Source: Lentimicrobium sp.
Lineage (GTDB): Bacteria; Bacteroidota; Bacteroidia; Bacteroidales; Lentimicrobiaceae
Direction: 5' to 3'
Length of the DNA: 57,693 nucleotides
Assembly: GCA_023957275.1 (NCBI GenBank)
Contig: JAMLHF010000024.1
Span: 1 to 57,693 of the forward strand
The translations under genes were made by a program, and so were the position numbers. Below, in pieces: positions 1-19,350 of the stretch (within the stretch, counting starts at the first letter, position 1; each line of letters opens with the position of its first letter). The notes beneath the pieces were generated by a model. The model saw only the letters and a program-made list of their open reading frames with translations, was not told the origin of the DNA and made no database searches.

Positions 1-753
1 TTTCAGCGTAGTATTGGTGCTGACATTTACCGGCACAGTGTATTCTGTGCTGGTATTGTCAGGGTCGCTGCCATCGGATGTATAGTAGATTGTGGCTTCC
101 GGGGTGGTTGTTGAAATGGAAACGCTTTGTGCTGCGTAATAATTACCTCCGGCAGGTGTAAATAATGGTGTAGCAACCAAAGGAGTCCCTGAGTTGTCCG
201 GGCTCCAGATAAAATCATCAATCATAATCCTCTCGGTACTACCATTCGCTACCAAGCGTATAAGGATATTATTAACTGAACTGTTGATCGTTCCATTGAA
301 GGTTACCCAATCAGAAGAATTATTCAGACTGGTATTGTTAATCACTGCTACAAATGTCCAATCTGTTCCTCCATTAATTGAGTATTCCAAATTGAAATCT
401 GGACTAGGCGAACCGTCCCATCTCCTGATTTTCATTTCAAAGGTAGAAACACCTCCGGTTGCTATTGTGATCCGCCAGTCAACGCTGGTAATGTTTTGCA
501 AACGCCATGAGTATGTCCCCAAAGCACCCGCAAAACCATCCTGAGCAGCAGTGCCATTCCTCAGTGCAGGGCCGCCTGTAGCACTGAAATCTCCATCTGT
601 ATAAACATGATCTACTGCATAAGAACTTAATGCAGCAGAACCTGCAGTCCATTTGGTGTCATCATCAAAGTTAATGGTAGTTTGAGCCCAACTTGTAAAA
701 GGGGTCATCATTGCGAGAATAAAAATCGCCATTAATGTTTTATTTTTCATCAT
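1..753 (-). CDS. Secreted surface protein with chitobiase-type C-terminal domain (partial, C-terminus beyond window)
   Basis: The frame is open from the ATG at 753 to the window edge, giving 251 codons with no stop, so the C-terminus lies outside. Residues 1-24 form a signal peptide (MMKNK, hydrophobic core, SWAQ), so the product is exported. Residues about 25-190 are a beta-rich segment whose pattern (WTFVAVINN, ILIRLV, IDDFIWSPDNS) resembles the jelly-roll or lamin-tail-associated regions of Bacteroidota secreted nucleases and adhesins. Residues about 195-251 match the chitobiase/beta-hexosaminidase C-terminal family (CHB_HEX_C), with the hallmark TIYYTSDGSDPD. It lies 63 bp downstream of the next surface-protein gene on the same strand and may be co-transcribed with it. 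The enzymatic identity cannot be told, because the diagnostic part may be missing. A second ATG directly follows the first; either could be used. Confidence 0.75.
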   Translation of the reverse strand, partial: MMKNKTLMAIFILAMMTPFTSWAQTTINFDDDTKWTAGSAALSSYAVDHVYTDGDFSATGGPALRNGTAAQDGFAGALGTYSWRLQNITSVDWRITIATGGVSTFEMKIRRWDGSPSPDFNLEYSINGGTDWTFVAVINNTSLNNSSDWVTFNGTINSSVNNILIRLVANGSTERIMIDDFIWSPDNSGTPLVATPLFTPAGGNYYAAQSVSISTTTPEATIYYTSDGSDPDNTSTEYTVPVNVSTNTTLK

Positions 754-816: not shown

Positions 817-3800
817 TCAAGGTGTAATCTTCCCCACAAACACCGACGCATTGTTGTCCACAATGGTCATGTCTGATGTATCCACTGTTCCATCACCATT
901 TGCATCGCTGCTCAGGTATCCCGAGATGAAATTGGCAGCATCATTGTCCACCGGTGTCATATCACCTGAATCAATAGAACCATCCTGGTTTACATCGCCT
1001 CCAAATATCAGGTACTTGCCCGATGCAGGTTTCAGGTTGTTGCCAAAGGCCTGTGAAGCGCTGCTGCTGAAGTTATAGCTCAGGCTCATCTGATCGAAAG
1101 AAAGGGGAGTGGCATTCCAGGTTTCGATGCTGTTGCGGTGCTTGATAACAATGTAATAGCTTTCGCCCAACGAAGCGGGAAGCGTTACATTGGCAGTTCC
1201 ATCTGTAAGTACTTCAACAATATAGGGGCCGCCAGCCAATGCATAGGGAGGTGAAGCATCGTGAAGCTCAAGGGTGATGTGGTCGGCTACCGCACCAGGG
1301 TACTGATCCCCCGAAATTCCCTTAGCTTTGTTCAAATCAACCCCGTTGAAGAGTCCTTCAAGAAAAAGGGTAAGGGTGAGGTTGCGTTCGGAAGGAAGAA
1401 TATTCACATTGTAATCTTCGGTTTCACCATAACTGTAATTATTGCAAGGGTCAAAATTGCTATTGTTCCAAACTTCACGTACGCGCATCCGGGTGGTTCC
1501 GATCACGGCCGTTTCAGGAATCGAAAATATTATCGTTCCGGTAGCCGGAGTGGAAGGGATGTCTACATTTCCCAATTTCTCAGAAGTTTCAAAAGTGCCG
1601 TTCCTGTTATAGTCAATCCACACTGAAATATTGTTACCGCTGGAATAGGTGCCCGGACTTAAAGTAATGGTATAGGAAGCGCCTTGCAGCAGATCAGTTG
1701 TTAAACTGCTGTAATATGTATAATAAGGACTCGTTGAAGCACCGGTTGCATTGTTGATGCTTCCGAGTTGAACCAGGGAGATATAGTCACCACTGCTGGT
1801 GCCGGAGGTGTATTCCGGGATGCAATAAACAAAACTCTGTACATCAATGTAATTCGCTTTGATTTCCGAATCAGGACCACTGGCATTGGTGGCGGTGAGG
1901 GTTACTGAATATTGACCTGTTGATGTAAACTGAACCTCCGGATTCTGTGAGTTGGCGCTCGTGCCATTAACATAGACAACACTTCCGGGACTAAAACTCC
2001 ATGCCCAGGATGTCGGTGCATTGGTTGACAGATCGGTAAAGTTTACTTTTTCGTTAATTGCAGGCGTTGTTGAAGAAGCTGCAAAGTCTGCAACCGGAGG
2101 AACAGCCGTACTATAACAATTGATGGCAGCCGCCCAGCCTGATGGAGTTAAACTATTATCAGAAGTAAAATTGAATGTTAGTGCGCCTGAACCATTGCCT
2201 GCAGTGAAAGTTCCGGGATTGGTAGTACCTGAGTAGGTTCCGATCAGTGGTGCTGAGGTGTTGATACCATCGTAAATACTGAGAAAATCATATCCCGACT
2301 CGACATTGAAAGCACTGAAATCGGCTCTGATCATTGCTCCCGGTGTTCCGGGGTAGAATGTAAAGGTATAATTTTCATTGTTTGCATAGTTGCCTGAAGG
2401 TCCACCTGAATCATAGAAACTTCCTGCACAAGTTGTTACTGATCCATTGGTTATGTTAAATACAGGGGGGGTAACAGTAATGTAAGCCGTTCTGGTTTTG
2501 GTGTCGGTTGCACCAGGTTTGGATGCAATTAAAGTCACGTCATAATTTCCGGCCGCTGCATAAGTAATAGCGGGAGGGTTCTGACCATTGAAGGAAGCAG
2601 GCGTTCCTCCCGGGAATGACCATTGCCATGTAGTTGGACCACATGACGAAAGATCGGTGAAAATAACGGAATTGCCTTCAATAACTGTTGTAGCGGAGGC
2701 TGCGAAATCGGCAATCAGGTCTATGGCTGTAATATATGCAGTTTTGGTTTCGGTGTCAGTTTCAGTGCCGTTTGAAACAGTCAGCGAAACATCGTAAGTG
2801 CCGGTAATGGCGTAAGTTATCGGTGGTGGATTTTCCAGATCAGAAGAAGACGGTGTTCCACCCGGGAAACTCCAACTCCATGAAGTAGGTTGAGGAATGG
2901 ATTCATCGGTAAAAGTTAATGATGACCCGGCGCAGACCGTAACAGCATCCGCGCTGAATGCTGCAGAGAGTGCAGGCGGTGCAAACTGAAATACGCCAAC
3001 ATAACTTTTCCGTGCGGATCCGGTGAAAACCTCCCCAATAGACCAGAATGTTGCATCGTCATTCGGGTCAATGGTCATTTGGGCATAATCGCCATAGCGT
3101 GAGGCTGGATCACGCTGCGTACCATTGAAAATTACCTGCTCAGCCATAGTCATTATCCCCGGAGGGTCGGTAGCGAGGCGTCCGGTATATCTGAGTGCAG
3201 GGAAGAGGGTTGAGCTTACTGTTGTGTATGCAAGACCAATGTTTCCATTGGCATCCATACACATATTACCACAAAATGCGCTGTGGCCGTCAGGCTGAGC
3301 ATAAGTACCTTCCTGAAATATGCTCCAGGGTGCGCCATCAGCAGTTTGTCTTAACTCGTACCAACGGATACCTGAATAATCATCGTTGCCATCCAAATCA
3401 ACCACGAAGTTGAAAACTACAGAATTGTGCCCCGAAAAGCGCCTGTATTGTGCCATATACATGATGGTTGCCTGCAAAGCATCAATGTCGCTGCCCGAAG
3501 GCTGGGGCAGATTGGAAAAAGAACCTCCGTCGAATAATCCGTCGAAAGCCGCCGTATTTATGATTTGCGGTGCCGAAATGGTGGAACTGGCCGGCGTCGT
3601 CCAGTCCACATTTACATTCCATATTTTCAGGTGGTCTGTCGAAACCCCACTCCATGAATCGTCCTGCATATAAACAATGGGTGCATTGCCCGGTGGTGGA
3701 AGGGTTGGCCCATTACAATTAAATCCCAGCGGACTGTAAAATCCACTGGTTACAATTCCCGTAAGGGGGAACCCAAGCATTTGAGCCGTCAAATCACCGG

Positions 3801-4560
3801 TTAACATTTTATTGCGATCAAGTGCGAAAACGACCTGACTCGTACTTGCTGAAGATTGATCTTTGTTGGCCGTAATATAATATCCATCGCTCCAGACCGA
3901 GAATTTTGGATAATCGGGGAATGTGTTTGTATTGAAGCGATAAACATACCATCCATCATTCACCGGGTCAGGACCCTGACAAATGGCGACATCAAATCCA
4001 TTGCTGAAAAACTCTGTAATCAGAAAACGATCGGCATACCGGTCATAGATCACTATGGGGTCGCCCATCGTTCCCGGAAACAATGTTCCCAGGGAGGCCG
4101 GGCTGGTTAAAGGGTTTCCTGTCTTATCCCATATTCTGAAGGATGAATTCCAGGAGTTGACAAAATGATTAGGCCCTACAGCACCCGTGGGGTCTGTGGG
4201 TGTAGAGCCTGCACTGGCAGCCTCAAAAGTGAGCAGTGGCAACCTGCCTGGGGATTTGGTGCCGGTTGCACGTTGGCTTTCAAACAACGGATCATTGCCT
4301 TTTGGGAGTCCTTTACCAGGTACGGAAGTATTGGTACCCCATCTTTTGGGATTTACCTCTTTTTGTATATCAACGGCTGGGATAAATTCCCCTGATGACA
4401 ACTGATCGGCAATGGATTTCACCAAAATAACAGGCTCTGATGTAGTGATTAATGTAGGGTGCAAACGACCCGATTCACTTTGAATAGTGTAATTCTGTGC
4501 AAAACTTAAAAATGGAATCAGATTCAGCAACAGAAAGAATGAAAGTAAGTTTCTTCGCAT
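817..4560 (-). CDS. Large secreted PKD/CUB/GEVED protein with dockerin-like C-terminal module
   Basis: This is an intact 1247-residue exported protein. It has a signal peptide (MRRNLLSFFLLLN to SFAQ) and then, at about residues 85-530, an N-terminal region rich in DP, W and Y repeats that is probably a beta-propeller-like domain. Two PKD domains follow (about 530-700; WSWSFPGGTP and WQWSFPGGTP), then a CUB domain (about 700-815; CAGSFYDSGG, YDFLSIYDG), a third PKD (about 820-910) and a GEVED domain (about 910-1050; VWIDYNRNGTFE, ETEDYNV). The terminal 190-residue module has two dockerin-like loops (DVNQDGSIDSGD and DANGDGTVDTSD). There is no T9SS type-A ending such as KVxIR. The same terminal module occurs in two neighbouring proteins. 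Domain order suggests an adhesin or extracellular binding protein; no catalytic motif was recognised. Confidence 0.85.
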   Translation of the reverse strand: MRRNLLSFFLLLNLIPFLSFAQNYTIQSESGRLHPTLITTSEPVILVKSIADQLSSGEFIPAVDIQKEVNPKRWGTNTSVPGKGLPKGNDPLFESQRATGTKSPGRLPLLTFEAASAGSTPTDPTGAVGPNHFVNSWNSSFRIWDKTGNPLTSPASLGTLFPGTMGDPIVIYDRYADRFLITEFFSNGFDVAICQGPDPVNDGWYVYRFNTNTFPDYPKFSVWSDGYYITANKDQSSASTSQVVFALDRNKMLTGDLTAQMLGFPLTGIVTSGFYSPLGFNCNGPTLPPPGNAPIVYMQDDSWSGVSTDHLKIWNVNVDWTTPASSTISAPQIINTAAFDGLFDGGSFSNLPQPSGSDIDALQATIMYMAQYRRFSGHNSVVFNFVVDLDGNDDYSGIRWYELRQTADGAPWSIFQEGTYAQPDGHSAFCGNMCMDANGNIGLAYTTVSSTLFPALRYTGRLATDPPGIMTMAEQVIFNGTQRDPASRYGDYAQMTIDPNDDATFWSIGEVFTGSARKSYVGVFQFAPPALSAAFSADAVTVCAGSSLTFTDESIPQPTSWSWSFPGGTPSSSDLENPPPITYAITGTYDVSLTVSNGTETDTETKTAYITAIDLIADFAASATTVIEGNSVIFTDLSSCGPTTWQWSFPGGTPASFNGQNPPAITYAAAGNYDVTLIASKPGATDTKTRTAYITVTPPVFNITNGSVTTCAGSFYDSGGPSGNYANNENYTFTFYPGTPGAMIRADFSAFNVESGYDFLSIYDGINTSAPLIGTYSGTTNPGTFTAGNGSGALTFNFTSDNSLTPSGWAAAINCYSTAVPPVADFAASSTTPAINEKVNFTDLSTNAPTSWAWSFSPGSVVYVNGTSANSQNPEVQFTSTGQYSVTLTATNASGPDSEIKANYIDVQSFVYCIPEYTSGTSSGDYISLVQLGSINNATGASTSPYYTYYSSLTTDLLQGASYTITLSPGTYSSGNNISVWIDYNRNGTFETSEKLGNVDIPSTPATGTIIFSIPETAVIGTTRMRVREVWNNSNFDPCNNYSYGETEDYNVNILPSERNLTLTLFLEGLFNGVDLNKAKGISGDQYPGAVADHITLELHDASPPYALAGGPYIVEVLTDGTANVTLPASLGESYYIVIKHRNSIETWNATPLSFDQMSLSYNFSSSASQAFGNNLKPASGKYLIFGGDVNQDGSIDSGDMTPVDNDAANFISGYLSSDANGDGTVDTSDMTIVDNNASVFVGKITP
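820..1389 (-). other. C-terminal dockerin-like module, copy 1
   Basis: This is the terminal ~190 residues of the PKD/CUB protein. A beta-rich first part carries EGLFNG, ADHITLELHDAS, TANVTLPAS and IVIKHRNSIETW. Two EF-hand-like loops follow, with Asp/Asn at positions 1, 3, 5, 9 and 12 (DVNQDGSIDSGD and DANGDGTVDTSD), each followed by a VDNDA or VDNNA helix start. It aligns by eye with the ends of the proteins at 4650 and 13064. Confidence 0.8.
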
Positions 4561-4579
4561 TTGATTTGACTTGGTTATA

Positions 4580-4610
4580 GCCTTCCTGACAGGTTTTCTG
4601 CCAGGAAGGC
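4580..4610 (-). terminator. Inverted repeat between two surface-protein genes
   Basis: The arms GCCTTCCTG and CAGGAAGGC, extended inward by CAG/CTG around one mismatch, form a strong hairpin. It lies between the stop of the protease gene and the start of the PKD/CUB gene. There is no clear T-run on the minus strand, so it could be a weak terminator, an mRNA-stabilising hairpin or a regulatory site. Confidence 0.45.
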
Positions 4611-4649
4611 TTGTATGTTTATTTTTGGATTTTTTCCATCATTATTATT

Positions 4650-7600
4650 CTATGGCAAAATAGCACCGGCAAACGCACTTGAATTGTTGTCAATTATGGT
4701 CATATCTGCCGTGTCAACGGATCCGTTACCGTCACAATCATTGGTCAGATAGCCGGTGCTGAATGCCGAAGCGTCATTATCCACCGGTGTCATATCACCG
4801 GTATCAATCAAACCGCTCTGATCAACATCTCCGCCATAAATTACATAGTAACCGTCAGAAGTTAAAAGCAGGTTGCTACCGTAAGCTTTAGAGGGATGAT
4901 CGAACAGCCAGGTAACATCGCTCCCGGTGAAACTAACCGGAGCCGACGAGGTTGTTTCCAGAGAATTTCTGTGCTTAACGGTGATGTAGTATGAGCCATT
5001 GACAGAGGCCGGCAGCGTTACATTCACCGTCCCGGATGTACTCAGGTCAATATCGGCGAACGTATGGGAAATGATGCTGTAATCTGATGCATCATGCAAT
5101 TCAATGGTTATTTTATCGGCAACCTCTCCCGGGAACTGATCTCCTGAACCGCCCTGGGCTTTGCGCATACTGTTGCTTCCATTGTAAAGGCCTTCAAGCA
5201 GGAGCGAAAGTGAAAGCGTAGATTCATTCTGAACTCCGGTAAATGAGACATTGTCAACATACCAGTTGTCAAAATTATAATGATCTCCTTCCAGCACCCA
5301 GGCAATGTAAGTTGTCGAGCCCAGATTATAAGTGATGGGTGTTGAAATCACCCCTGATTCATTGCCGTTACCGGACTCATTGACCCATGATTCATCCGTC
5401 CAGCTTAACCCGTCGGAGCTTGACTGAATTTTGTATATAAGCCCGGAGTCCCAGTCATCAAAAAAATGCCTGAACGTTAAAGTAAGTTCACTGATACCCG
5501 TTGGTATTCAGCGGAGGTGCAATCAGTCTGGAGATTCCGGTTCCATCCGTCCAGAGGGCCATCATCTCGTTTGGAGCTCCTCCGGCGTTGGCACTGTTTG
5601 ATACCGTCCACCGGTCGCTGATGGTTGATGTCTGGCTCCAGCACTCCGGGAAAGTTGAATTATTAAAGTTCTCATCAAATGGAAGTGAGACGATTCCGCA
5701 GTTTGTTGAAAATTCAATGTTGTTGCCATAGGCGGTTCCGCTGCCATTGGTTGCGTAAGCCCTGACATAATAGGTTGTTGATGGCGAAAGGTTGATCATC
5801 TGGCTGATAAAGGCGCCGGTACCCTGACCATTGACTGTAAAGTTGTCGGAAAGGGCAGGGTCCGGGTTGGTGCCATAGCATACTCCTCTGGCAGTGACCG
5901 CGGAGGTTCCTTCAAACACCACCTCTCCACCACTGGTTGCGGTAGCATCGGTTATGTCCGTTACCGGGGAGGTTATAACCACAGGTAGGTCCATATTGAC
6001 TGCTTCAGCTGTTATATCATCAATATACCAGTTGTCAATGGCAGAAATGATTCCTTCAACGGTAAAAGCGATGTAAGTGACGGGTGAATTAAGGTTGCTA
6101 TTGACTGTAGTCTGTGTAATAAAAGGTCCCTTATTCGTATTATCTACCGAAATCATCGACCAGGCTTCATTCGTCCAGTTTATGCCGTCGGTACTGCTCT
6201 GCACCCGGAGCGTTGCCCCGGTGCCGTAATCGTCAAGCAGATGACTGAAAGTCAGGTCAATCGAATTTACTCCCAGGGTGTTGATCGGGGGAGTCACAAG
6301 GCGGGTCGCACTGCCTCCTCCCTGCCAGTAACATTTTGCTTCGCCCTGGACAGCTCCGGCTGCCAGGTTCGTCGCAGAAAATGACCAGTGGTCAGTACTG
6401 GCCCCTGGATTCTGCTGGCTCCAGCAGTTTGGAAGGGCAAAACCGCCAAAGGATTCACTGAAAGGTAAATCCAGTATTCCACAGGATGTTGTGGCATTGG
6501 CTTTTCGCGAAACAACTGAATAATAGCCGGTATTCTTCGACCATAAGCATAATAGTATGTGGTTGCAGGTTCAAGGCCGGAATGCTCAAAATCTGTCAGG
6601 GTTCCTTCATAGAGTACGGTACCGCCACCCGGAATAGATTGACCCGGCAGATAATTTCCGGATGGGATACCGAAATTATTGGTTGAATTCCAGGCCAGCA
6701 TTACAATATCATTGGCTGTATTGGGTTGCCAGCTCAGGTTTATCTGATTCTCGTTCTGGGCTTCCGCTGAAAAGTTCTGCGGAGCAGCCGGTAAAAGGGG
6801 TTGATATAGCCCTGTGTCGCCAGCAGTGCCTCATAGGCATTCATGCGGCCGCTGCCAAGCATTCCGTTATAGTCAGGGTTGAGCGCATCTATGTCGTCTG
6901 CCGTCGAGGTGAGAATATCTTTAATATCCTGAGGGTACAACTGACCCGGAGCAAGCGATATGATCAGCGCGGCAACCCCTGAAACATGCGGACAAGCCAT
7001 AGAGGTGCCCTGGTAGAATCCGTAACTGCTGCCCGTGAGGCAGCTCAGCACGCCTCTTTCGATAACGGCGTTGGTTTCTCCCCCCGGTGCCGCAATATCA
7101 ATCCAGGTATCATAATTTGAATACCATGCTTTCAGGTCCTGGTTGGTTGTTGCTGCTACAGAAAACGCCCCGCTGTAATGCCCGGGTACCATTGCCCCGG
7201 AGAACCGCTGTTCCCGGCCGCATAAATGGTTATTCCTCCATTCAGCAGGGATCCGCCTCCGTTTGCATTGAAATAGTCAATGGCATCCAGGACCGCCTGT
7301 TCATAATACCCCGATAAGTGTATCCCCAGCTGTTCTGAGATATCGCTGCGTCATTGTCGGCGCGTAAACAGGGGCATTCTCAAATCCACTGCCTCCTGAA
7401 GAGCCGATAAACACCTGACACGACATCAGCCTGACCCCGTTTCCGCTGCCATCACCTCCGGCAACACCGCTTACTCCGGTTCCGTTGTTCGTATTGGCTG
7501 CCACGGTTCCTGCAACATGGGTTCCATGGTCTCCGGGAACAATTGTTGGCGAATCGTCAACAAAGTTGTATCCGATGCCACTCCACATATTACCGGCAAG

Positions 7601-8323
7601 GTCGGGGTGAGTGTATTGAATACCCTGATCAACGATGGCGACAATCACTTCGGTATCGCCCCGGTTGATGTTCCACGCTTCGGGCAGATCTATATCCGCA
7701 TCCGTGGTTCCTCCCTGCTGTCCTGTATTGTGATAGTGCCATTGAGCATTGTATTGCGGGTCATTGGGGGTGTAATTCAGCCCGGTTTCAGGCGGAAGCT
7801 GAATGGGATTCATAACGTTTCCGATCAGATGTTTCCGGTAAACCGGTTCCGACAGCTCGATTTCACCCGGCAAAGTATAGGCGGAAACCATGGCGCGCAG
7901 GTCGGTACTCTCAGATACAATCAGGTCGTACCACAGATGAAAGCCCCAAGCCCGGTGCCGGTCGGCAAACCTGGTATTCTGCATCGCGGCAGCAAAGGTT
8001 TTTCTCACTTCAGTTACGCCGAACTGCCGGTTTAGCTGGTCTGTGCCGGGCAACCCAAACTGAACGATGCCCCGGGGGTCTGTTGATGGCAGATGATTGT
8101 CAAGCAGGGCCTCTGCTGACCGGCTGAATTTTATCCTGATGATGCCCTGTTCCATGGCGTCATCGGGAACGGACATGATGTCGATCGGAGGGCGTTCACC
8201 CCTGATTACATTTTGTGATGATGCTGACTGAGGCTGTGTTACCAGGAGCATTGCTCCCAGTTTTATAATGAGCAATACATTCCGGAAAAGTATGCTGTAC
8301 CTTGTAAGGTTATTTGTTTTCAT
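4650..8323 (-). pseudogene. Frame-disrupted secreted subtilisin-like (S8) protease with dockerin-like C-terminal module
   Basis: Read across frames this is one gene of about 1220 codons. The first fragment (8323-7301) has a signal peptide, a prodomain and the catalytic Asp232 (VDQGIQYTHPDL) and His266 (DHGTHVAGT). The fragment at 7192-6740 has the catalytic Ser motif GTSMACPHVSG. FN3-like and cleaved-adhesin-like domains follow (6701-5488; PNCWSQ, PECWSQ), then the dockerin-like tail (5351-4650). Single-base shifts are needed near 7360, 7310, 7184, 6797, 6540 and 5497. Most fall in or next to short homopolymers, and once corrected the protein reads without gaps, for example AISQNSWGYTYRG and TIYAAGNSG. 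The catalytic triad is complete. It is therefore either a recently broken gene or, more likely, a functional protease affected by sequencing indels. The role would be extracellular proteolysis. Confidence 0.8.
4653..5228 (-). other. C-terminal dockerin-like module, copy 2 (protease tail)
   Basis: These 192 residues are parallel to copy 1: EGLYNG, ADKITIELHDAS, VNVTLPAS, ITVKHRNSLETT, then loops DVDQSGLIDTGD and DCDGNGSVDTAD, ending AGAILP. The Asp/Asn ligand spacing of the calcium loops is kept. It sits at the end of the disrupted subtilisin-like gene. Confidence 0.8.
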
Positions 8324-8497
8324 GGCTGAAATATTTAGGGGTTTGAAAATACGGGATGGTTGATCCGGTTGTAAGGCATTTTGCCTTTACTGAATCAGTA
8401 TGCAAGTCCAAAACATCTCTGAACGTTTCTTAAAAGAAGAAAATTCAGATATGAATAATCAATTATCTGTTGATTGGGTAAAGATATAAGCGCAGTA

Positions 8498-8527
8498 GAA
8501 AAAGCCCGGACATAAGTCCGGGCTTTT
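8498..8527. terminator. Rho-independent terminator
   Basis: A strong stem AAAAGCCCGGAC / GTCCGGGCTTTT encloses a 4-nt loop. It lies about 20 nt after the corrected stop of the small secreted protein on the minus strand and is followed there by a T-run, so it probably ends that transcript before the protease gene. The A and T flanks would let it act in both directions. Confidence 0.75.
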
Positions 8528-8546
8528 CTGAATTCGGGTGTTGTGG

Positions 8547-8770
8547 TTATTCGAATTTGTTCCTGGCATCGAACGCCTTCTTGATGCCATAGCCTGCGGC
8601 CATGGTGACCAGAAGGACGATTCCGCCGCCGATGGGAGCGGTGCACCTCCGCCGATGGGAGGGCCGCCTACCGGGTCACCTCCGGAGTTTGAGCCCGGAC
8701 TGGGCTGGGCAAGCACACTGGCAGAGAAACTCAGAACCATCAACACGGTGAAAGCGGCTAAGTATTTCAT
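8547..8770 (-). pseudogene. Small secreted Gly/Pro-rich protein with C-terminal hydrophobic segment (one frameshift)
   Basis: The start is clear: an N-terminal signal peptide (MKYLAAFTVLMVLSFSAS to VLAQ) and then a Gly/Pro stretch (PVGGPPIGGGAP). The frame then breaks near 8640 (GCACCGCTCC). Allowing one added base, it continues PIGGGIVLLVTMAAGYGIKKAFDARNKFE and stops at 8547, giving about 75 residues. The corrected product has a signal peptide, a short linker and a second hydrophobic segment with a positive tail. This is a common layout for short cell-envelope proteins located next to large Bacteroidota surface proteins. Function is unknown. Uncorrected, the frame would run on into meaningless Arg/His-rich sequence past the terminator, which supports the correction. 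Confidence 0.6.
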
Positions 8771-8810
8771 GAATTTTCATTTTCTGTAGTTTTTAGTGGT
8801 TAATAATTGC

Positions 8811-8829
8811 TCCCCGGCCAGGCCGGGGA
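8811..8829 (-). terminator. GC-rich palindrome after the T9SS surface-protein gene
   Basis: Nine-base arms TCCCCGGCC and GGCCGGGGA flank a single base, 17 nt past the corrected stop at 8846. On the minus strand it is followed by AT-rich sequence but not by a clean T-run. It is a probable transcription end or mRNA 3' hairpin. Confidence 0.45.
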
Positions 8830-8845
8830 ACTTATTAAAATTGGT

Positions 8846-11800
8846 TAGCGGATAAACACTTTATGGTTGACGTTCACCTTTTTCGGTAATCACCTTCACG
8901 ATATAAGAGTGCCGATAACAGCCTGCACAGGAATGCGAATTGGTCATCCGGCTTTCCATGTTGGTGTTGATAAGTTCGCGTCCGGCCAGGTCATAAATGC
9001 GAACATCTCCTGAAAGGCCGGTGGTGTTGGTAATAACCACTGTATGGTTATAGCTGTACGGAAATTCCGCCCAATGAAGGATCGTTGATGCCGGTAGAAG
9101 CTTTGAAGTGCACCCTGAAGCGGTTTCATTGTCACTGGTATTGTAAGTGAAATTGTAAGCCGGGTTCTGGCGCAGATGTCTGGATGGTATTGCAGTTTCA
9201 GGTCTTCGAGCATAACGGGGGTGCTGGCGCTGAAACTTTCCATGCCGGAAGCGGTAATGCTGTACGTTCCGCCAACGCCGCACTTAAATCCCAGGTTGAC
9301 CACCTCATTGCCTTCGAAGGGCAGTTCGTTGATGCTCAACACATCGCCGGGAACAATGCTGTAAAGTTGAGGCGCGTTGCTGAGCCCCCACAGTTTATAA
9401 GCGTCGTGCCGACCATCGAACAAGGGGGTAGCAGCGCTGTTGAAGCGGATAAAGGTTTCGTCTTTATAGCCATTACCATTTGCACGCAGCGACAGCAGAT
9501 TAGCCGGGCTTGCCTTGTAGAATTCAATGTTGCTGTGAACCCGCGCGTAAAGCGGAATGGTAAGTGACAATCCGTCACCAATTGCCTTGACAAAGAAACC
9601 GTTCTGAGGCGGAATAATACCATCTGTAAGGCTTCCGGCGTAACCATTGTAAGAAACATACTGTGCGCCATCCCATACATAAACTGCTGCATCCACAACA
9701 GGTGTGGAGCCTGGCCCGTTCAGGACGATATCCCAGTCTATTGCGCTCTGGAATGGGTTGCCAAGCAGGTTCCATCCTACACGGTCAGGATCGCCACTGG
9801 TATTGGCATAAGATAAGTTGTGGGTAACATCATCTGTATTAAAGATGCCGGGGAATAAAGCCATTTGTGGTTCATCCATTTCAATGGAGTAGCCAATACC
9901 TGGTTCCATAAAATCATTGATGAACAGGTTTATCCAGTCACCTGAGGGTTCATCGTATTGACGGGCCCATACCGCATTCTGGTTCAGTGGAAATACAGTG
10001 CCGAAATTAATACTTGTAACTGGTGAGGACAGCAAATGGAACGCGGCATTGTCAATACTACGTTGTACTTCTGCCTGAGCTACAGTGAGATGTTCCGCAC
10101 CAATAAAGGAACCTCCGTCCTGAATAACAATGCTTGCGCACGCTGCATCAAAAAACAGTGTTGGAAAATTAGGCACTCCCCCAGGGATGGTTACAGCTGT
10201 TATTGCTGTAGGAAGGCACGGATTCCAGTTGGCCGGGTTAAACCAGTTTCTGTCTTCTGCGCCGGTCCATGTTGTAGCTGCACAGCCTGTTCCAGCCTGA
10301 TCAACGACGATATCAAAGAATGACCCGGCGCCCGTTCCGCAGCTGTTTAATCCATAAACAGATAATACTCCGCTGCTTGCCCCGATGGCAAAGTCGAGGG
10401 TAACCATGTTGCCGGTTCCGTTGATGGTAACTCCGGTTCCTGAGTATGCCCAGACATAGGAAGCAGCATTGGCTATGACGCCGACATTATAGGCTACACC
10501 CATATCTCCTTCGGTAACCGTGGCCGGGCCATCAATAAGTCCGGCAGCGGCAGGTATGTCAAGAACGGTAATTGTAAAGGTGCAGAAATCGGAGCATCCG
10601 GTTTCCATATCTTCATAGGTATAAGTTATGGTATGTGCTCCAACACCTGCAACCGCGGGATAGAAAATACCGTCAGTTACACCTGTGCCTGAGTACACAC
10701 CGCCTGTGGGGTTGCCGCCGGCAAGCGTCTGACCGCCTGCATTGATACAAACATCCATATCGGCGGGACAGGTAACATCCGGGTGTGCATTTTCGATCAC
10801 AATGGCGCTTCCGGTCATATCTGTAGTCCCTCCCGCATTGGTTCCGCTGGCGGTATAAACGCCTTCGAGTCTGAGCCCAAAGTCAAGGGCAGCGCCTGTC
10901 CCGGGTGTCGAAGACACTTCTACATCATCCTGATAGAGGGTGTAAGTTACCCCGATTTCAGAACCCGATAGTCCGACCGCAACGCCATCCTCTCCTTCGC
11001 AGTATGAACCGCCACCGGTCATTTCAAAGGCAACAGGAGGCAGTATCACGTCTTCTACCACCATGGTGATAATATCAGAAACGGCAGTAGCTGTGGTGAC
11101 GCATGCTTCAGTGCTGGTCATTATAACATATACCTCATCGCCATTTAGCGGAATGTAAGCATAGGGATTTCCTGTGGCTACAGAGCTTCCGTTAACAAAC
11201 CATTCATAGGTGGGTACACCTCCGTTTACAGGAGTAGCTGTAAATGTTACGGTTGTTCCTGTTGTAACGGCGCCGGCGGGATCAGCTACAATGCTTACTG
11301 ATGGTGTCAGCAGCGGATTGACAGTTATTGCTATGGTATTAGAAGTGGCGGGGTTACCGGTAGTGCATTCAAGGCTTGAGTTCATCACTACGTAAACCTG
11401 GTCTCCGTTTTCCGGAGTAACGCTATAAATGGCGCTGTTGTTGCCGACCGTGTTACCATTCAGGTACCACTGGTAGTCAGGGGTTCCCCCGTTCACCGGT
11501 GTGGCGGTGAAAGTGACGCTGGTGCCAGCGCACACTTCGGTGTCATCGGCTTCAATACTTACGCTGACCGGAAGCGGTTCTTCGACCACCATATCGATGG
11601 TATTCGAAGTGGCATTTCCTGCCGAGCACAGAATATCTGGGGTCATTACAACATAAACGGCATCTCCGTCAACAGGGGTGTAAGAGAATGTGCCTGTAAA
11701 GTTGACGATTTGAGTAGCGCCATTGACAAACCATTCATAGGCCGGCTGGTCGCCGCCGTTTACCGGGGTTGCGGTAAAGGTTACCTCAGTTCCGGCACAT

Positions 11801-12963
11801 ACCGGATTGGCACTGGCTGTAATAGATACTGTTGAAGTTTCAAGTGGCACAATGGTAATCGCCATTGTATAAGTGCTTGCGCACTGACCAGGATCAGGCG
11901 TAAACACATAATCGGAGGTGCCGGGCGTTCCGGTATTTATTGTAGCCGGATTCCAGGTGCCGGTGATTCCGTTATTTGAGGTAAGCGGAAGAGCAGGTGG
12001 TATGCTATTTTGACACATCGGCTCAATCTGTGCGAACAGAGGAGCGGTAGGCTCTGTCATGGTAATCACTGCAGAGCCAGTCATCATAGTGCCTTCAGGA
12101 CATTCTGGCGTGGTTCCCAGCACTGTGTATGTACCGGCAGTCTGATTACCAAATGAAATGGCCTCTCCGTCTCCTTCAACGGTAGGTACCTGAGCTACGC
12201 CGTCTTTGAAAAGGGTATAGGTGACCCCCTCTTCTGAATCTTCCAGTCCGACTGGTAAGCCGGCCTCTCCCTGGCAATAGGCGCCACCACCGGTAACATT
12301 AAAGGCGGTGGGGCAGGCAGCTGCCGGGTTGAGAATCGGGTTGCCGTAAACAATGGCGTTAACACCAGGTGTGACAGTTAGCTGAACATTAGTGCCATCT
12401 ATATACTCTGCAACACGAGAAGGATATAATGGATTGGGGGCAGTATTGGAATTAAACACTAAGTCCATTGTACTGTTGGGAGCGAAAGGAACGGTACTTG
12501 TAATGACAAATGTTGTCAACAATGTGCCCGGAGATACAGTGCTTATTATAGTTCCGTTTCCAGTTCCAGGAGGCGATTTCCCGACACTTCTCATCAATGT
12601 CTGGCCGGGGTATGCTGCCATGGCAAAATTGAAAGATATATTTCCACCAAATTGCTGAAACACATTTAATCCTGTACCAGTATTGTCGTAAATGGCAGAA
12701 AGCGTACCACCGGCAAAAAAGCCTGAATTCATTAGAAATCCGAATTGCAGGGATGCCAGTTCAAAAGGCTGTGTTGGATCTGTATCAAGCAGATATACCT
12801 GAAACTGAAGTACATTGTCAGCAACCTGAACGATGTTTCGAACTGAAAGTTCATAATCTTCAGTTGCCAGCGGAGCGTACAATGCTTGTGCGTTCGCTTT
12901 GGGAATTGCCATTGCGAGAAGAAGCATTGCTACAGCAAAAAGTGTAACGAATGGTTTTTTCAT
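8846..12963 (-). CDS. T9SS-exported Ig-repeat surface protein with type-A C-terminal sorting domain (3' end frame-disrupted)
   Basis: The signal peptide (MKKPFVTLFAVAM to ANAQ) is followed by a ~180-residue beta-domain of possible cohesin-like type (VLQFQVYLLDTDPTQPF, SLQFGFLM, LLTTFVITSTVPF). Next come two 'TGGG.YC.GE' repeats and at least three ~85-residue Ig-like repeats (VTFTATPVNGG, then YEWFVNG, then YVVM). After these are a segment typical of Bacteroidota surface proteins (TWTGAEDRNWFNPANWNPC) and a long beta-region (WNLLGNPFQSAIDW). The sense frame is intact to about 9180; the last ~110 codons need about six single-base corrections (near 9180, 9123, 9052, 8942, 8903 and 8880). Corrected, they give a type-A T9SS sorting domain (GDVRIYDLAGREL, IVKVITEK, NHKVFIR) ending at 8846. 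It is probably anchored at the cell surface by T9SS; porQ at 41092 fits this. Uncorrected, the open frame stops at 8944. Confidence 0.8.
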
Positions 12964-13063
12964 ATTGGTTTGATTTATTGGTGATTAATTAATTGTTTGT
13001 AATGTTAAAGATTAATTTTATGTTGGTTTAAGCACATCAACCTGATTTAGGGGTTTTAAGGCA

Positions 13064-16000
13064 TTAAGGTAAAATTGCCCCGACAAACAGTGCGCTGTTG
13101 TTGTCAACGATTGTCATATCTGCAGTATCAGTTAATCCGGATCCATCAACATCTGTTATGAGGTATCCTGTTGCAAAAATTGCAGCGTTATTGTCAATTT
13201 CTGACATGTCACCGGTGTCAACAATTCCATCCTTAAAAATATCGCCGGAATAGATTGCATAAACCCCGTCAACAAAATATTGCAGATTTCCTCCATAAAT
13301 ATTGGCCGGTAAGCCGAAACTCTGAGTGATGACATCACCAGAGAAGGATATTGGAGAAGCCGATGTAGTTTCAATTGAATTACGGTGTTTAACGGTGATA
13401 TAATAACTTCCGTTAAGTCCGGATGGGATGTCGTCAACAGTTGCTGTTCCGGAAATGCTCAATTGAACGGTTAAGCTGAATTCAATAGTACTGTAGCTGG
13501 TAGCACTATGCAACTCAACAGTGATCTCATCTGCAATACCAGCACCAAACTCAGGTAGCCCGTTTTCATCGAGGGCTTCATGCATCAATCCACTTCCGCT
13601 GTATAATCCTTCGATAATAACATCGGTCAAATTCAGGGTTTTTGTGGGAGGCGTCTGTAATGAGACACTTACATCGTCAATAAGCCAGCTGTGAGCAAAG
13701 GTTCCTTCATAACGGAAGGCAATATAAATGGTTTCACCAGCGTATGCATTCAGGTCAATCACAGTTTCAACCCATGTTGCTGATACACTTTCCGGCGACC
13801 AGATTTCGGTGTATTGTTCATCTGACGGGTCAGGGGAGCCGGTTGAAATCAGCACACTATTCTTAAAATAATCACCCGGATAAATATTATATGACCAGAA
13901 CTTCAATTCGGTATTCCCGGTTTCCGGGATGATCAATGCCGGACTGATCAGCCACCCATCCTCAGCATAATCAAAGTCACCATACGGATGCCCAAATGCC
14001 AACTCACCATCGGGCGTATGGTTTAGCCCGTTATACCAACTCCATTGCTCACCACCTCCATCGGCGTCATATCGTGACCAACATAGTAACGTGGCTGAAC
14101 TTTCTTCAAAGTCTTCAGCGAATGGAAGATTCAGTGCAAAGCAGGAGGTGGCAAACTCCACTCCACCTGTCCAATTGCTGTAATTATCATTTCCGCATAC
14201 CGAACGTACATAAACCATATAGATGGTTCCGTCTTCCAGCCCGGTGATATTTGCGGTGGTCACCCCGGCAGCCGTAGTTCCCGAAGCTGCAAGTCCGGTT
14301 GCCCCGCTGCCCGGGTCTCCGTCGGTTCTGACTTCATATTCATAGCCATTGGCAGGCGCCGGATCAGGTGCAGTCCATTCAATGGTAGCCGAAGTCTGAT
14401 CAAATTCGGTTACCTGGACATTGGTAGGAACATTGCATGTGATAATTTCAACAGTTACAGGGCCTGCAGGTTCTGATTCACCTTCGCTGTAAACAGCCGT
14501 AACAGTGTAGCTGTATGTACCGGCCGGGAGGTTAAGGTCATCATACTCTGTTAATGTGGTAAAAGCAAGAAATGCTTCATCTTTATAGACATTGTAACCG
14601 GTCATTTCCCTGTTTGATCTGACTCCAACATTATTGTTAAAGACCAGGAGTTTTTCCTCAATCTGTTCAGGAGTTAAACCTGCTGTTTTGAAAGGATATG
14701 CATTCGATGTCCGGTTTGATATAATCGGAGTGTTCATTGATCTTGTTGCCGTATTGGTTACAACAACATCATCAAGTTTCATCCAAAACATATCGGTTAC
14801 ATCAGTATGCTGCCAGGCAATATATACCGTCTGACCAGCATAAGCTGAAAGGCTGACAGTAACAAGAGCCCAATCCCCAGGTGTGACGCCACTCCAAAGA
14901 GTTGTTGTAAAATCCGTTAGCGCTGTTCCTGTTGTTGAAATTTTAACATAGTACTGTTCGTCAGGATAATCAGCATCCTGAGCATCATGCCACCAAGAAA
15001 GATCGGATGTCGCAGTAACAGATATGGCGGGAGTAATAAGCCAGTTGTCAGGAGTTAAAGCGCCTGCAGTATTATCATAGGATGCACTGGTCATTGCACC
15101 ACTACCAGCATGAGCATCGAAGCCGAAAGCTTGCTCTATTGTATTTATCCAGTTAAAAGCATCGCCATCATTATCAATGGCTAACCAGCCTGTGGGTAAA
15201 GTTCCTGCTTCGAAATCCTCAACAAATGCGTTTTCGAGAGCATCCGGAGCAAGCCATGTCAAATGCACATCCTGATTTTCAACACTGGCCTGGAGGTCCA
15301 GCGGCGGGTCAACATAAATATTCAGGCAGAGATCCTGGGTGGTTGTTGCACCTTCTGTTACAACTACACCGGTAATGGTTTTGCTGAAGTAACCCGACAG
15401 ACTGGCTGACAGATCATAAGTTCCTATATTAACTTCAGGAAACTCGTAATAGCCATTCACATCAGTCGTTGTTGTTAAACCAGCAATTGATACGGAAACA
15501 CCTTCCAGGAAAGCGCCTGTATAACAATCAGTTACTTCACCCCTGACCATTTCGGTCGGCAAAGCTTCAAGAACATTTACCGTATAGTCTTCATATGAAC
15601 CATAGCTTCCTGTATAACAAGGTGTTGGTGGGCCCGCGTCAACACCGCCGATACGCATCCTGTGATTTCCGAGCGGTGCATCTGAAGGCACAATGAAAGA
15701 AGCTGCAAGTGTGGTAGGATTTGTTGCTAATGAAGTGCCGGAATATACTTCTTCACCTGCATCGCTGAAATCAAGGTCATCATTCCAGTCAATCCATATT
15801 TTGGTATCATAGGTGTAACCGGTCTGGAATGTAATGGCAACAGGAACTGTAGCATCGCGGTTAACATCTCCGATCTGTGCGGAATAATCACCATAGTTGC
15901 CTGTTTCAGCGCCGGTAGTATTGTTAACAGTGCTAAAAGTTACATTGGTAATTCCTTGTCCATCAACCGAAGTTGGCGCAGGAATACAATAGCCTGTATA

Positions 16001-19000
16001 GAAGGGAACCGGAGATGTCCATGCGCTGTAATCGTTCACAGCGCAAACCGACCTTACCACGGCGGTATAGGAGGTATTTGCAGCCAATCCTGTTGCATTT
16101 GCTGTAGTAACACCTGCAGCAGTTGCTCCAGAGGCAACAACAGCCAGGCTGGCATCCAGAACTTGCCATTCATAACCATTTGCCGGTGCTGGAATTGCGG
16201 CTGTCCATGTGATGGTAGCCGAATTCAGTGTGTAAGTGGGAACATTCACTGAAAGAGGCATTTCACAGGTAGGAGGTTCCTGAACGATTACGTTGTCAAC
16301 ATATACATTATTGTCTGCATTAGAAATTGTTGATTCTCCATAGAATCCAATTTTTATAACCCCACTATATGCTGACAGATCTAAAATAATTGTTTCACCC
16401 GTGTTTGATATGTTGTTATAAACATAAGGAGAACCAGCATTATCCCATAAACGCAGGGTGTTGGCTGAGCTCCAGGTTTGTCCATTGTCAGTTGAAATGA
16501 CCACGGCAAATTTATCATCCACACCTGTTGTATTAGCTGGGCCGGTTGAATTCCAAAAAGTTAGTGCCAGGTCAAATCTCAACTCATAATCAGTTGAACC
16601 ATCGCCAAGGTCGATAGGAGGAGTAATCATCCAGGCGTATAAGCCGGTACTCCAGATTTCAAGCCTGGCTGAACCGGTGGTCCCGACATTTGCAAAGCCG
16701 TCAACTGTCCAGGCACTTGAAGTTCCCGTCAGAACAGATGGATCGGCTAACAAGCCTGATGTTTCTGTCCAGTTAAGCGGGGGATAAGTGTCAAAAGTTT
16801 GTGTAAATGGTGGGGTTAAAGTTGGGTCAGCCAATGTTGTAAATGACCTGACCACACTTGCCTCTCCATCACCCGTAGCATTGGTTGCTACAACTTTCCA
16901 ATAGTAGGTTGTTAAATAGTCTAATGGGGTTGCAACCACATAAGGTGAGGCAGTTACAGTTGTAAGTAGGGTTGTTGGATTAGGATTCTCATCGAGATAG
17001 ATTTTATATCCTGTTGGAACACCCCCGGTAGCGGCAGGAGTCCAGCTCAGGCTGGGGGTTATACTCACATTGGTTGCCGCATCAGCCGGCGCAACAAGCG
17101 TAACGGCATCAGGTACCACCGATGCTGTTACAGGGCCTGTAATATAGTCAATGTATACACTGCCGCCAGATCCGCCTGTCGCATAATAAGTGCTGAAGGC
17201 AAGATAATAATCGTCGGCAGGAATGGAAGAAAGATCAATTGTGTATAAAGCAAATGCACCAGCACTGGGTAGTTCAATTTCAGATCCAATATTTGTCCAG
17301 GTAGTTCCATCATCTGAATATTGAACCTGTATTCTTTGATAAATACTCGTAGTACTTGTCCTGGCATAGAAAGTCAGGGCGCTGCTGCTGTTAATTGAAA
17401 CAAGAGGAGTTCTTAATAAACTTGCTGTTGCAGTAGTATATTTATAGGCAGAAGCGACGCCTTCATAAGAATAAGAGGTAGATCTTGACCAGGTACCGGG
17501 GTTGGCCCAGCCAGCAGGAGGGAAGGTGGTTGCTTCAAAGCTTTCGAATAATGTGCCTTCCGGCAATGCAGTTCCGCTTAAGGCAACTACAGATGGTGAT
17601 CCTGTGGCATTGTGTGTAAAATTCAGATTCGCTGTTTTGAAGCCGCTTGTAGTTGGGGTGAAGACTACACCAACTGTTGCAGATTGTCCGGCAGTCAGAT
17701 TCAGTGGATACAAGTTACCATCAGACAAAACAAATTGATTGGCATCAGTACCGATTATGGAAGTGGCTGGATTCAAGGTGAGAGTGCCTCCTCCTGTATT
17801 ACTAATAGTAAAGGTTTGGGAAGCTGAAGAATTACCTATAACAACAGATGCAAAGTCTTTTGAAGCAGGACTTACCATAAATGTAGGTGTAGCGGGAATA
17901 TCCCTGATCAACACATCATCCAGATATAAATACCAACCGTCTGCAGGGGAATCTTTTCTGGTAAATGATAAATACACAGTTCCTGAATAGGCACTCAGAT
18001 CAACCGAATATTCAACGTAAGAGGTTGAATTTACAGCCACGGATGATATCGATGACCTGTGGTAAAAGCTTCTGGGAGTTGGGGGTTGTAGATGATAAAG
18101 AATCAAACTTCGTCTGGCTCTGAAGCTGAATGAGCCCTGGCCCAGAATTTCAATTCCTGGTTACCTGTTAAAGCGACAGGTGGTGTTACCAGGTAATCAT
18201 CGTTTACTGTATTAAAATCTGTCAATATTCTGGCACATTGTAATCCTGTTCTTGGATTTGATGTTGATAATATCCACTTATTATCTGCATTATTATCAAT
18301 TACCGTCCATCCATAAGGCGGAAATGCCGCGCCTTCAAATCCTTCGGTAAATGGAAATACAGTGACTGTCGGGTCGGGGCCTGTGGTAAATGACCATGTG
18401 GCACAATCGGTTGCGTCACCATTATCATTGTAAGGCACCACTTTCCAGTAATAAGTAGTGGAGTAATCCATATTTCCCGCAGGATCGTAAGTGGTTACTA
18501 GACCTAGGTCAATAGGTGTGGCGGGCAGTTCATCGGCTCCAAAGTAAAGATTGTACCCTGTTGGCGCACCCCCCCCGGAAGCCCAGTTAAGGGTGGCTGA
18601 GGGAAGAACATTGGTGGCTGCATCGGCCGGGGAGACCAGTGGCTGGTAGTTAGGAGGGGTGACTATTGCCGGTGGGGTCCATGTGAATGTCAGACCGCTT
18701 GCGGGAAAGATAGAGCTGGTTAATGTGCAGGTTGCAGAATTGGATGCTCCTGCTGTAGTCGCCGCCCAATCTGTAGTCGTCGTCCTGTTGTTGAACACAG
18801 AACTGGAGGATCCTCTTAAACCTACCTGCTTTGTTCTGGCTGTGGAGTTCTTAACTATGGTTCCATAACCGATTTCAACAACGTTGGTAGTCCGGTAGAG
18901 TTTTACCTGAAAGTTGTAGCCGGATGCAGCAGCATAATGCCCGAAGTCTCTTCCATTGAATGGTCAGCACCTGGTTTGGAGTGGGCTCCGAAAGCTCATA

Positions 19001-19350
19001 GCGCAGGGTTGCTCCGGCATTTCCCTGTAGGTCTGCGTTAAATGCGGCAATAATATTGTTGGAGGACCCGGTGCTTAATGCCGTATAACTGCTGGAGACA
19101 CTTGCACCAAAAGCAAGAAATCCGTTGGCATTTACACTGAACTGTGTGAAATTAGTTTCATTAAAGTTAAATAACCAATGCTGTTGGCATTATAGTTGTT
19201 GTCATCCATAGTTGTATCTGAACCTAGTTAGCTCCTCCGGTAATTTCAGTATAAGTGCCAGATGAACTCACGAATGAGTAGGCATTTATCGCCCCCACGA
19301 GCTTCCGGCCCATAGGAACAGCAGAATTAGCAATGTAAAAAGTTTTTCAT
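13064..19350 (-). CDS. Giant cleaved-adhesin/FN3/GEVED surface protein with dockerin-like C-terminal module (5' end frame-disrupted)
   Basis: The intact part (from 18106 or just upstream) is 1680 residues. Upstream sequence supplies the true N-terminus once about six one-base shifts are allowed (near 19338, 19300, 19228, 19175, 18950 and 18100): signal peptide LLILLFLWAGSSWG, then NAYSFVSSSGTYTEITGGA and NANGFLAFGA, an N-terminal domain common in Bacteroidota surface proteins. The ordered domains are an FN3 domain with a cleaved-adhesin segment (FPPYGWTVIDNNADNKW), an ASPM/Hydin-type domain (NTGGGTLTLNP), further cleaved-adhesin-like domains (PTGWLAIDNDGDAFNW, LDDVVV) alternating with FN3 domains, a GEVED domain (IWIDWNDDLDF), a carboxypeptidase-regulatory-like domain (GEVTDCYTGAFLEGV) and the dockerin-like tail. 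Corrected length is about 2095 residues. Cleaved-adhesin domains are known from gingipain and haemagglutinin proteins, so adhesion or substrate binding is likely. Confidence 0.8.
13067..13645 (-). other. C-terminal dockerin-like module, copy 3
   Basis: These are 193 residues parallel to the other two copies: EGLYSG, ADEITVELHSAT, TATVDDIPS, ITVKHRNSIETT, then loops DIFKDGIVDTGD and DVDGSGLTDTAD and the ending VGAILP. The first loop has Phe-Lys where the other copies have Asn/Asp, so its calcium ligand set is weaker. Confidence 0.8.

Follow-up and report, generated by a model that had tools for sequence, protein, structure and literature searches.

A predicted X-module–dockerin tail and a candidate cohesin-like socket point to a probable cellulosome-like display system in Bacteroidales

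Introduction

Type II X-module–dockerin (XDoc) dyads are known from ScaA/CipA and CipB of C. thermocellum and from ScaA of A. cellulolyticus (PDB 2b59, 5k39, 5g5d and 4wi0). In these the type II dockerin mediates attachment to the cell surface, and a stabilising effect on the dockerin is ascribed to the X module (PMC5141474). A dockerin/cohesin complex has been inferred in Candidatus Stygibacter of the Cloacimonadota (PMC8542988), which is the nearest published idea that we found, and a non-cellulosomal cohesin/dockerin complex for peptide degradation, the planctosome, has been proposed in freshwater Planctomycetes (PMC6461901). Dockerins of the Pfam family PF00404 have been reported in Bacteroidota genomes with no known partner (PMC10266427, PMC7480376), the genome named for PF00963 in the former paper being a Christensenellales one, and the role of dockerins in the polysaccharide utilization loci of Bacteroidetes was called not yet defined (PMC7480376). 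Here we analysed a stretch of 57,693 nucleotides (the window) from Lentimicrobium sp. (contig JAMLHF010000024.1 of assembly GCA_023957275.1, order Bacteroidales), in which three neighbouring putative surface proteins carry a shared C-terminal module and are accompanied by a protein with a domain that we call C2.

We propose, with a probability of roughly 0.68, that these genes belong to a cellulosome-like display system, in which the module would be an XDoc plug, C2 its socket and a sorting domain of the type IX secretion system (T9SS) the anchor. On our best reading the whole would work like a cohesin–dockerin system, a known kind, with C2 as the part that would bind the module.

Results

The C-terminal tails of the three window proteins, hereafter carriers 1 to 3, were compared with one another and with further copies. 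The tails were 190–192 residues long and could be aligned end to end over 195 columns, in agreement with a preliminary description of this DNA that had proposed one shared module of about 190 residues; tails 2 and 3 were 55% and 43% identical to tail 1. The motifs EGL, AD.IT.ELH and KHRNS.ET lay in the first two thirds, and the last third held two calcium loops of the F-hand type, each 12 residues long, in which positions 1, 3, 5, 9 and 12 are Asp/Asn, a pattern suggesting calcium binding. When 79 modules were aligned, these loops proved to be the most conserved part. In both of them Asp occupied positions 1 and 12 without exception (D132, D143, D162 and D173 of tail 1), and conservation reached at least 90% at positions 5 and 9 in loop 1 (D136 and D140) and at position 5 in loop 2 (D166). 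Pfam Dockerin_1 (PF00404) matched tail 1 with 27.8 bits (cut-off 22.9), tails 2 and 3 lying under the cut-off. The same model matched 61 of the 79 modules at E≤0.001 and passed its curated cut-off at nine places in the genome of the window (4.4 Mb in 145 contigs, the window being contig C63).

That the invariant residues are those of the calcium loops would also suit a module without a partner, whose loops were structural calcium sites and which served as a stabilising cap or calcium switch of its passenger. We consider this very improbable, since a cap needs neither a two-domain XDoc arrangement nor the linkage and co-occurrence with C2 set out below, and the calcium switch once suggested for the module is not needed. 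In genome G056 the C2-adjacent modules of loci L187, L188, L189, L194 and L195 show a drifting calcium-loop pattern (for example FDGNGWVDSDDFNLFEPRL), which possibly reflects a changed specificity.

The predicted structure of the module combined an X-module and a dockerin in one two-domain fold, as judged by matches to PDB chains, the best of which shared 13–18% sequence identity with it. On this model the whole module has the fold of a type II XDoc dyad. The model contained the two calcium loops, an outcome with no EF-hand pair did not occur, and together with the Dockerin_1 matches it bears out the original likening of the loops to dockerin type I or EF-hand units. The module had at first been given no name; the dyad fold now supplies one, although no Pfam or NCBIfam model spans its full length. 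The T9SS models TIGR04183 and Por_Secre_tail matched none of the three tails, and no NCBIfam model matched any of the 79 modules at E≤0.001. The usual T9SS ending was thus lacking, as had been reported, and the tail did not turn out to be an already known sorting domain. T9SS domain folds did not appear in the module's fold-match lists, which carries no evidential weight.

In the genus, C2 was mostly found beside the module. Of 32 C2 domains there, 30 had a same-strand module no more than 400 bases away (0.36 expected within 1 kb), and for the remaining two the distances were 6.1 and 69 kb. When 41 genomes were searched, the module (E≤1e-8) was detected in 10, all within a genus of 19 genomes, and C2 (E≤1e-5) in nine of these 10 and in none of the 31 others. 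Among 393 genomes of the order, 17 matched the module strongly (E<1e-40, a threshold chosen once the list had been seen); C2 (E≤1e-8) was found in 15 of the 17, spread over ten family labels, and in 0 of the 376 others (Fisher 2.8e-25, kinship ignored). At most 8–9 candidates per genome were scored in this survey, so that per-genome counts are minimum values and a weakly matching C2 may have escaped notice. Eighteen further genomes of the order gave weak or partial module matches only and no C2 match. Several genomes (G127, G188, G226, G280 and others) yielded up to 161 first-look candidates and many weak partial module matches, and perhaps hold a separate and very extensive repertoire of dockerins that lacks C2. 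Across the phylum, seven of 395 genomes had a module match at E≤1e-25, the window's own included; the other six lay outside the class and mostly matched from position 21–67 on. Sequence distances of C2 and the module were also compared: for 34 neighbouring C2–module pairs in 18 genomes the distance matrices correlated with r 0.52, compared with 0.31 (standard deviation 0.07) when another module from the same genome's stretches was used, a value of 0.52 being reached in 14 of 2000 draws.

The position of the module in its carriers was examined with a profile built from the three tails. This profile found 20 places in the window's genome at E≤0.01, far beyond chance, of which 17 lay outside the window. 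Of the 20, 18 were complete, one was truncated by a contig end and one was partial. All 19 places with a visible stop ended within 16 residues of it, with nothing after the module in 14, 11–16 further residues in four and two residues in the partial one. In the collected loci, 134 of 136 matches that reached the profile end lay within 24 residues of the frame end and two were internal, some of these loci overlapping and some copies being counted twice. Modules in L072 (759–1418), L073 (3688–4317), L074 (4766–5395) and L075 (30103 region, contig C85) were of a second sort, with a basic, NTPPNPAKRPG-like extra tail of 11–16 residues after the dockerin. A module and a T9SS domain, called with home-made profiles, were never found in one frame in two partly overlapping sets of 139 and 75 module frames. 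The window's genome had at least 150 Por_Secre_tail matches, 150 of 207 candidates having been scored.

Strict C-terminal placement and the exclusion of T9SS domains would likewise be expected of an alternative T9SS sorting signal, which the translocon would read instead of the customary C-terminal domain and which would have no docking partner, a role that the preliminary description had allowed. SprA, the T9SS pore protein, was present in 17 of 17 strong-module genomes but also in 370 of 393 overall, and SprA presence was therefore set aside as an uninformative measure of T9SS dependence. We regard such a signal as quite unlikely: the module fold is that of an XDoc dyad, conservation peaks in the calcium loops, the two internal matches do not fit, and neither linkage nor co-occurrence with C2 is predicted. 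It is less likely than an attachment tag, another of the roles first considered and the one that the evidence favours, because it leaves the linked cohesin-fold partner unexplained.

Cargo domains were scanned in 18 of the 20 module proteins of the window's genome, as frames or pieces. We found S8 peptidases (carrier 2 and proteins on contigs C9 and C87), a C25 gingipain-like peptidase with CUB and PKD domains (C112), an M14 carboxypeptidase (C108), and an alpha/beta hydrolase and a sortilin-like match (both C87), together with PKD, CUB, GEVED, fn3, SprB or GLUG domains. Four of the 18 had no Pfam family at E≤1e-6, and none contained a cellulase or plant-wall enzyme family. A crude hydrophobicity rule, used as a sanity check only, gave signal peptides in 35/40 complete module frames, 55/58 C2 frames and 26/45 other frames of at least 300 amino acids (aa).

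The predicted model of C2 has a cohesin fold. PF00963 was found in none of 18 C2 domains at E≤0.1, and because this sequence match failed we call C2 cohesin-like and do not file it as a PF00963 cohesin. The 62 collected stretches and the window together gave 71 C2 frames: 28 had a module, 27 had a T9SS domain called by a home-made profile, eight ran off the stretch and eight had neither, while none had both. All six T9SS-type C2 relatives given to NCBIfam passed the TIGR04183 cut-off at the C-terminus. The eight frames with neither comprised seven short proteins of 207–223 residues and the window's own C2 gene, in which a sorting-domain remnant lies in another frame, below the TIGR04183 cut-off and similar to the intact end of L072_1459_5379. 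A same-strand module frame stood no more than 2.5 kb upstream of 38 of the 71 C2 frames, and for 36 of these the distance was at most 500 bases. The number of C2 copies per frame also differed, with one in the window protein, two in G056 and three in a 3829-aa frame of G124. The short proteins (L073 4452–5120, L156 2774–3433, L164 1246–1914, L170 2217–2867 and three more) look secreted and hold barely more than one C2, and six of the seven stand directly behind a module gene; they may be free sockets or competitors.

The proposed display system can be put together from these parts. It is supported by the two predicted folds and by the counts of C-terminal placement, linkage, co-occurrence, the two kinds of C2 protein and the cargo families. 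The tail would be a C-terminal XDoc plug, its last ~60 residues forming a dockerin with two calcium loops behind an Ig-like X module, and would fit the cohesin-fold socket C2 on scaffold proteins. C2 proteins that end in a T9SS domain would be anchors held on the outer surface, and those with a module would be adaptors resembling the adaptor scaffoldins of cellulosomes. Peptidases and adhesins without a T9SS signal of their own would in this way be hung on T9SS-exported scaffolds; fixing the complex on the surface would be the task of the socket protein's T9SS domain. We infer that C2 and the module bind each other, that calcium is bound and needed, and that the complex is located at the surface.

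A more specific version, which we hold only tentatively and think rather doubtful, is hitch-hiking export. Cargo with an N-terminal signal peptide only would dock through its XDoc tail on a C2–T9SS scaffold in the periplasm, and the complex would pass the SprA translocon, so that one T9SS signal exported several proteins; C2 would serve as the receptor and would also represent a new family of cohesins, which would account for orphan dockerins in Bacteroidota. Hitch-hiking fits because module and T9SS domain are mutually exclusive, because cargo and scaffold genes are adjacent, and because the cargo had no other outer-membrane route among those looked for.

Several observations weigh against C2 as the socket of a display system. 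CBM3 carbohydrate-binding modules share the C2 fold and scored just below the cohesins. No Pfam family names C2, its comparison with cohesins of the lineage by hhalign gave a probability of 0.9%, which is not significant, and a C2 profile search of PDB sequences returned no cohesin; proof from sequence that C2 is a cohesin thus failed, and three weak PDB sequence matches (E 0.08–0.12, one unrelated chain kind) were set aside as chance. A module without a C2 match was found in G002 (79% complete) and in G212 and G280, the latter two with one strong module each. Within genomes the co-variation gave no signal (719/2000, 25 comparisons). Because the loci behind the C2 profile were retrieved by way of the module, this profile may overlook divergent C2 domains elsewhere. 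As a control, a PF00963-type cohesin profile, also drawn from module-bearing genomes, matched 8/9 module-free genomes of the genus, and profile construction alone therefore does not force co-occurrence. Finally, 10 of 139 module frames were direct fusions with a PF00963-type cohesin, which may therefore be the true or a second receptor.

This last point is the core of another explanation, which keeps the XDoc plug, takes the PF00963-type cohesin as its receptor and makes C2 a CBM3-like sugar-binding domain that travels along. PF00963 matched above cut-off in the window's own genome, in tandem pairs on contigs C101 (L067 3–8117) and C68 (L069 2501–5809); one of these proteins ends T9SS-like. 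Cohesin–cohesin–T9SS proteins share a contig with module proteins, and C101 also carries a cohesin–module fusion. A 355-aa protein of this cohesin family consists of signal peptide, cohesin and module only. The direct fusions and the fold common to C2 and CBM3 would fit such a receptor, but PF00963 (E≤0.001) occurred in 6/10 module-positive and 2/9 module-negative genomes of the genus, the lineage profile matched nearly all module-negative ones, and the distribution of this cohesin, unlike that of C2, does not mirror that of the module. We judge the explanation unlikely, and the PF00963-type cohesin was rejected as sole receptor. With two cohesin-type families in one genome, two specificities may exist side by side.

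The features of the window are collected in Table 1. All three tails are encoded on the minus strand and end at stop codons. Downstream of module 3, 100 bases separate it from the start of the C2 gene. The range first described does hold the tails, with no strand stated, and overlooked the C2 gene between them. Carriers 2 and 3, taken there as single proteins, each consist of several frames broken by stops. Frameshifts split three adjacent genes (4650–8323, 8861–12984 and 13064–19350) and leave carrier 1 intact; they may stem from assembly error or from decay. Positions 1–753 (minus strand) encode the beginning of another apparently secreted protein, which has a chitobiase C-terminal-like domain; the contig end cuts this gene before any C-terminal module would be reached.

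Table 1. Features of the module and C2 genes in the window
Feature	Position	Strand	Basis or remark
Module 1 (predicted X-module–dockerin), C-terminus of carrier 1	820..1389	-	Alignment; Pfam Dockerin_1 above cut-off; model and PDB matches
First calcium-loop motif of module 1 (D132–D143 of tail)	961..996	-	Sequence
Second calcium-loop motif of module 1 (D162–D173 of tail)	871..906	-	Sequence
Carrier 1, intact, 1247 aa; PKD, CUB and GEVED domains	817..4560	-	
Module 2, C-terminus of carrier 2	4653..5225	-	Sequence; alignment
Carrier 2, S8 (subtilisin-like) peptidase, several broken frames	4650..8323	-	Peptidase_S8 and Peptidase_S8_N on piece 7304–8323
C2 gene: signal-peptide-like start, C2 domain, Ig/PKD-like domains; end frameshifted	8944..12963	-	
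C2 domain, predicted cohesin fold, proposed socket of the module	12373..12861	-	Model; no Pfam match
Frame with T9SS sorting-domain remnant of C2 gene	8864..9283	-	TIGR04183 17.9 bits, cut-off 23
Module 3, C-terminus of carrier 3	13067..13642	-	Sequence; alignment
Carrier 3, cleaved-adhesin / choice-of-anchor J protein	13064..~19350	-	Intact frame to 18160 only; frameshifted further upstream

Discussion

Our data suggest that proteases and adhesins of these bacteria are probably attached to scaffolds on the cell surface, much as cellulosomes clip cellulases. If this is true, a cohesin-fold family invisible to Pfam, tied to XDoc plugs and T9SS anchors, gives such dockerins a partner, and C2 offers a possible kind of missing partner for the dockerins of Bacteroidota. 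The logic of the cellulosome would then extend to protease display in a two-membrane lineage, new plug–socket pairs would become available, and it would become possible to test how proteins with a dockerin tail but no outer-membrane signal arrive at the surface. A literature search restricted to open-licence PMC papers returned no description of the module or of C2. What appears to be new is the XDoc dyad in T9SS-bearing Bacteroidales, the Pfam-hidden cohesin-fold family and the paired gene arrangement in several families.

Compared with known systems, the module resembles the type II dyads in its full-length two-domain fold, as predicted here, its two calcium loops and its C-terminal place. 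Unlike them, it occurs in Bacteroidales with a T9SS, has C2 as its proposed socket, and is carried mostly by peptidases and adhesins instead of scaffoldins. The Candidatus Stygibacter complex is similar in its dockerin-tailed S8 and C25 peptidases and in a scaffoldin-like protein that carries cohesins and is attached to the surface by its C-terminal domain; it differs in belonging to another phylum, in having cohesins that were found by InterProScan and in including glycosidases (GH18 and GH57), and the section consulted names neither an X module nor any cohesin-fold family beyond known models (PMC8542988). The planctosome follows a similar logic, with anchoring and adaptor proteins and an M14 peptidase, whereas its anchor is proposed to act through a lamin-tail domain and not through the T9SS, and the dockerin of its adaptor lies near the N-terminal side (PMC6461901).

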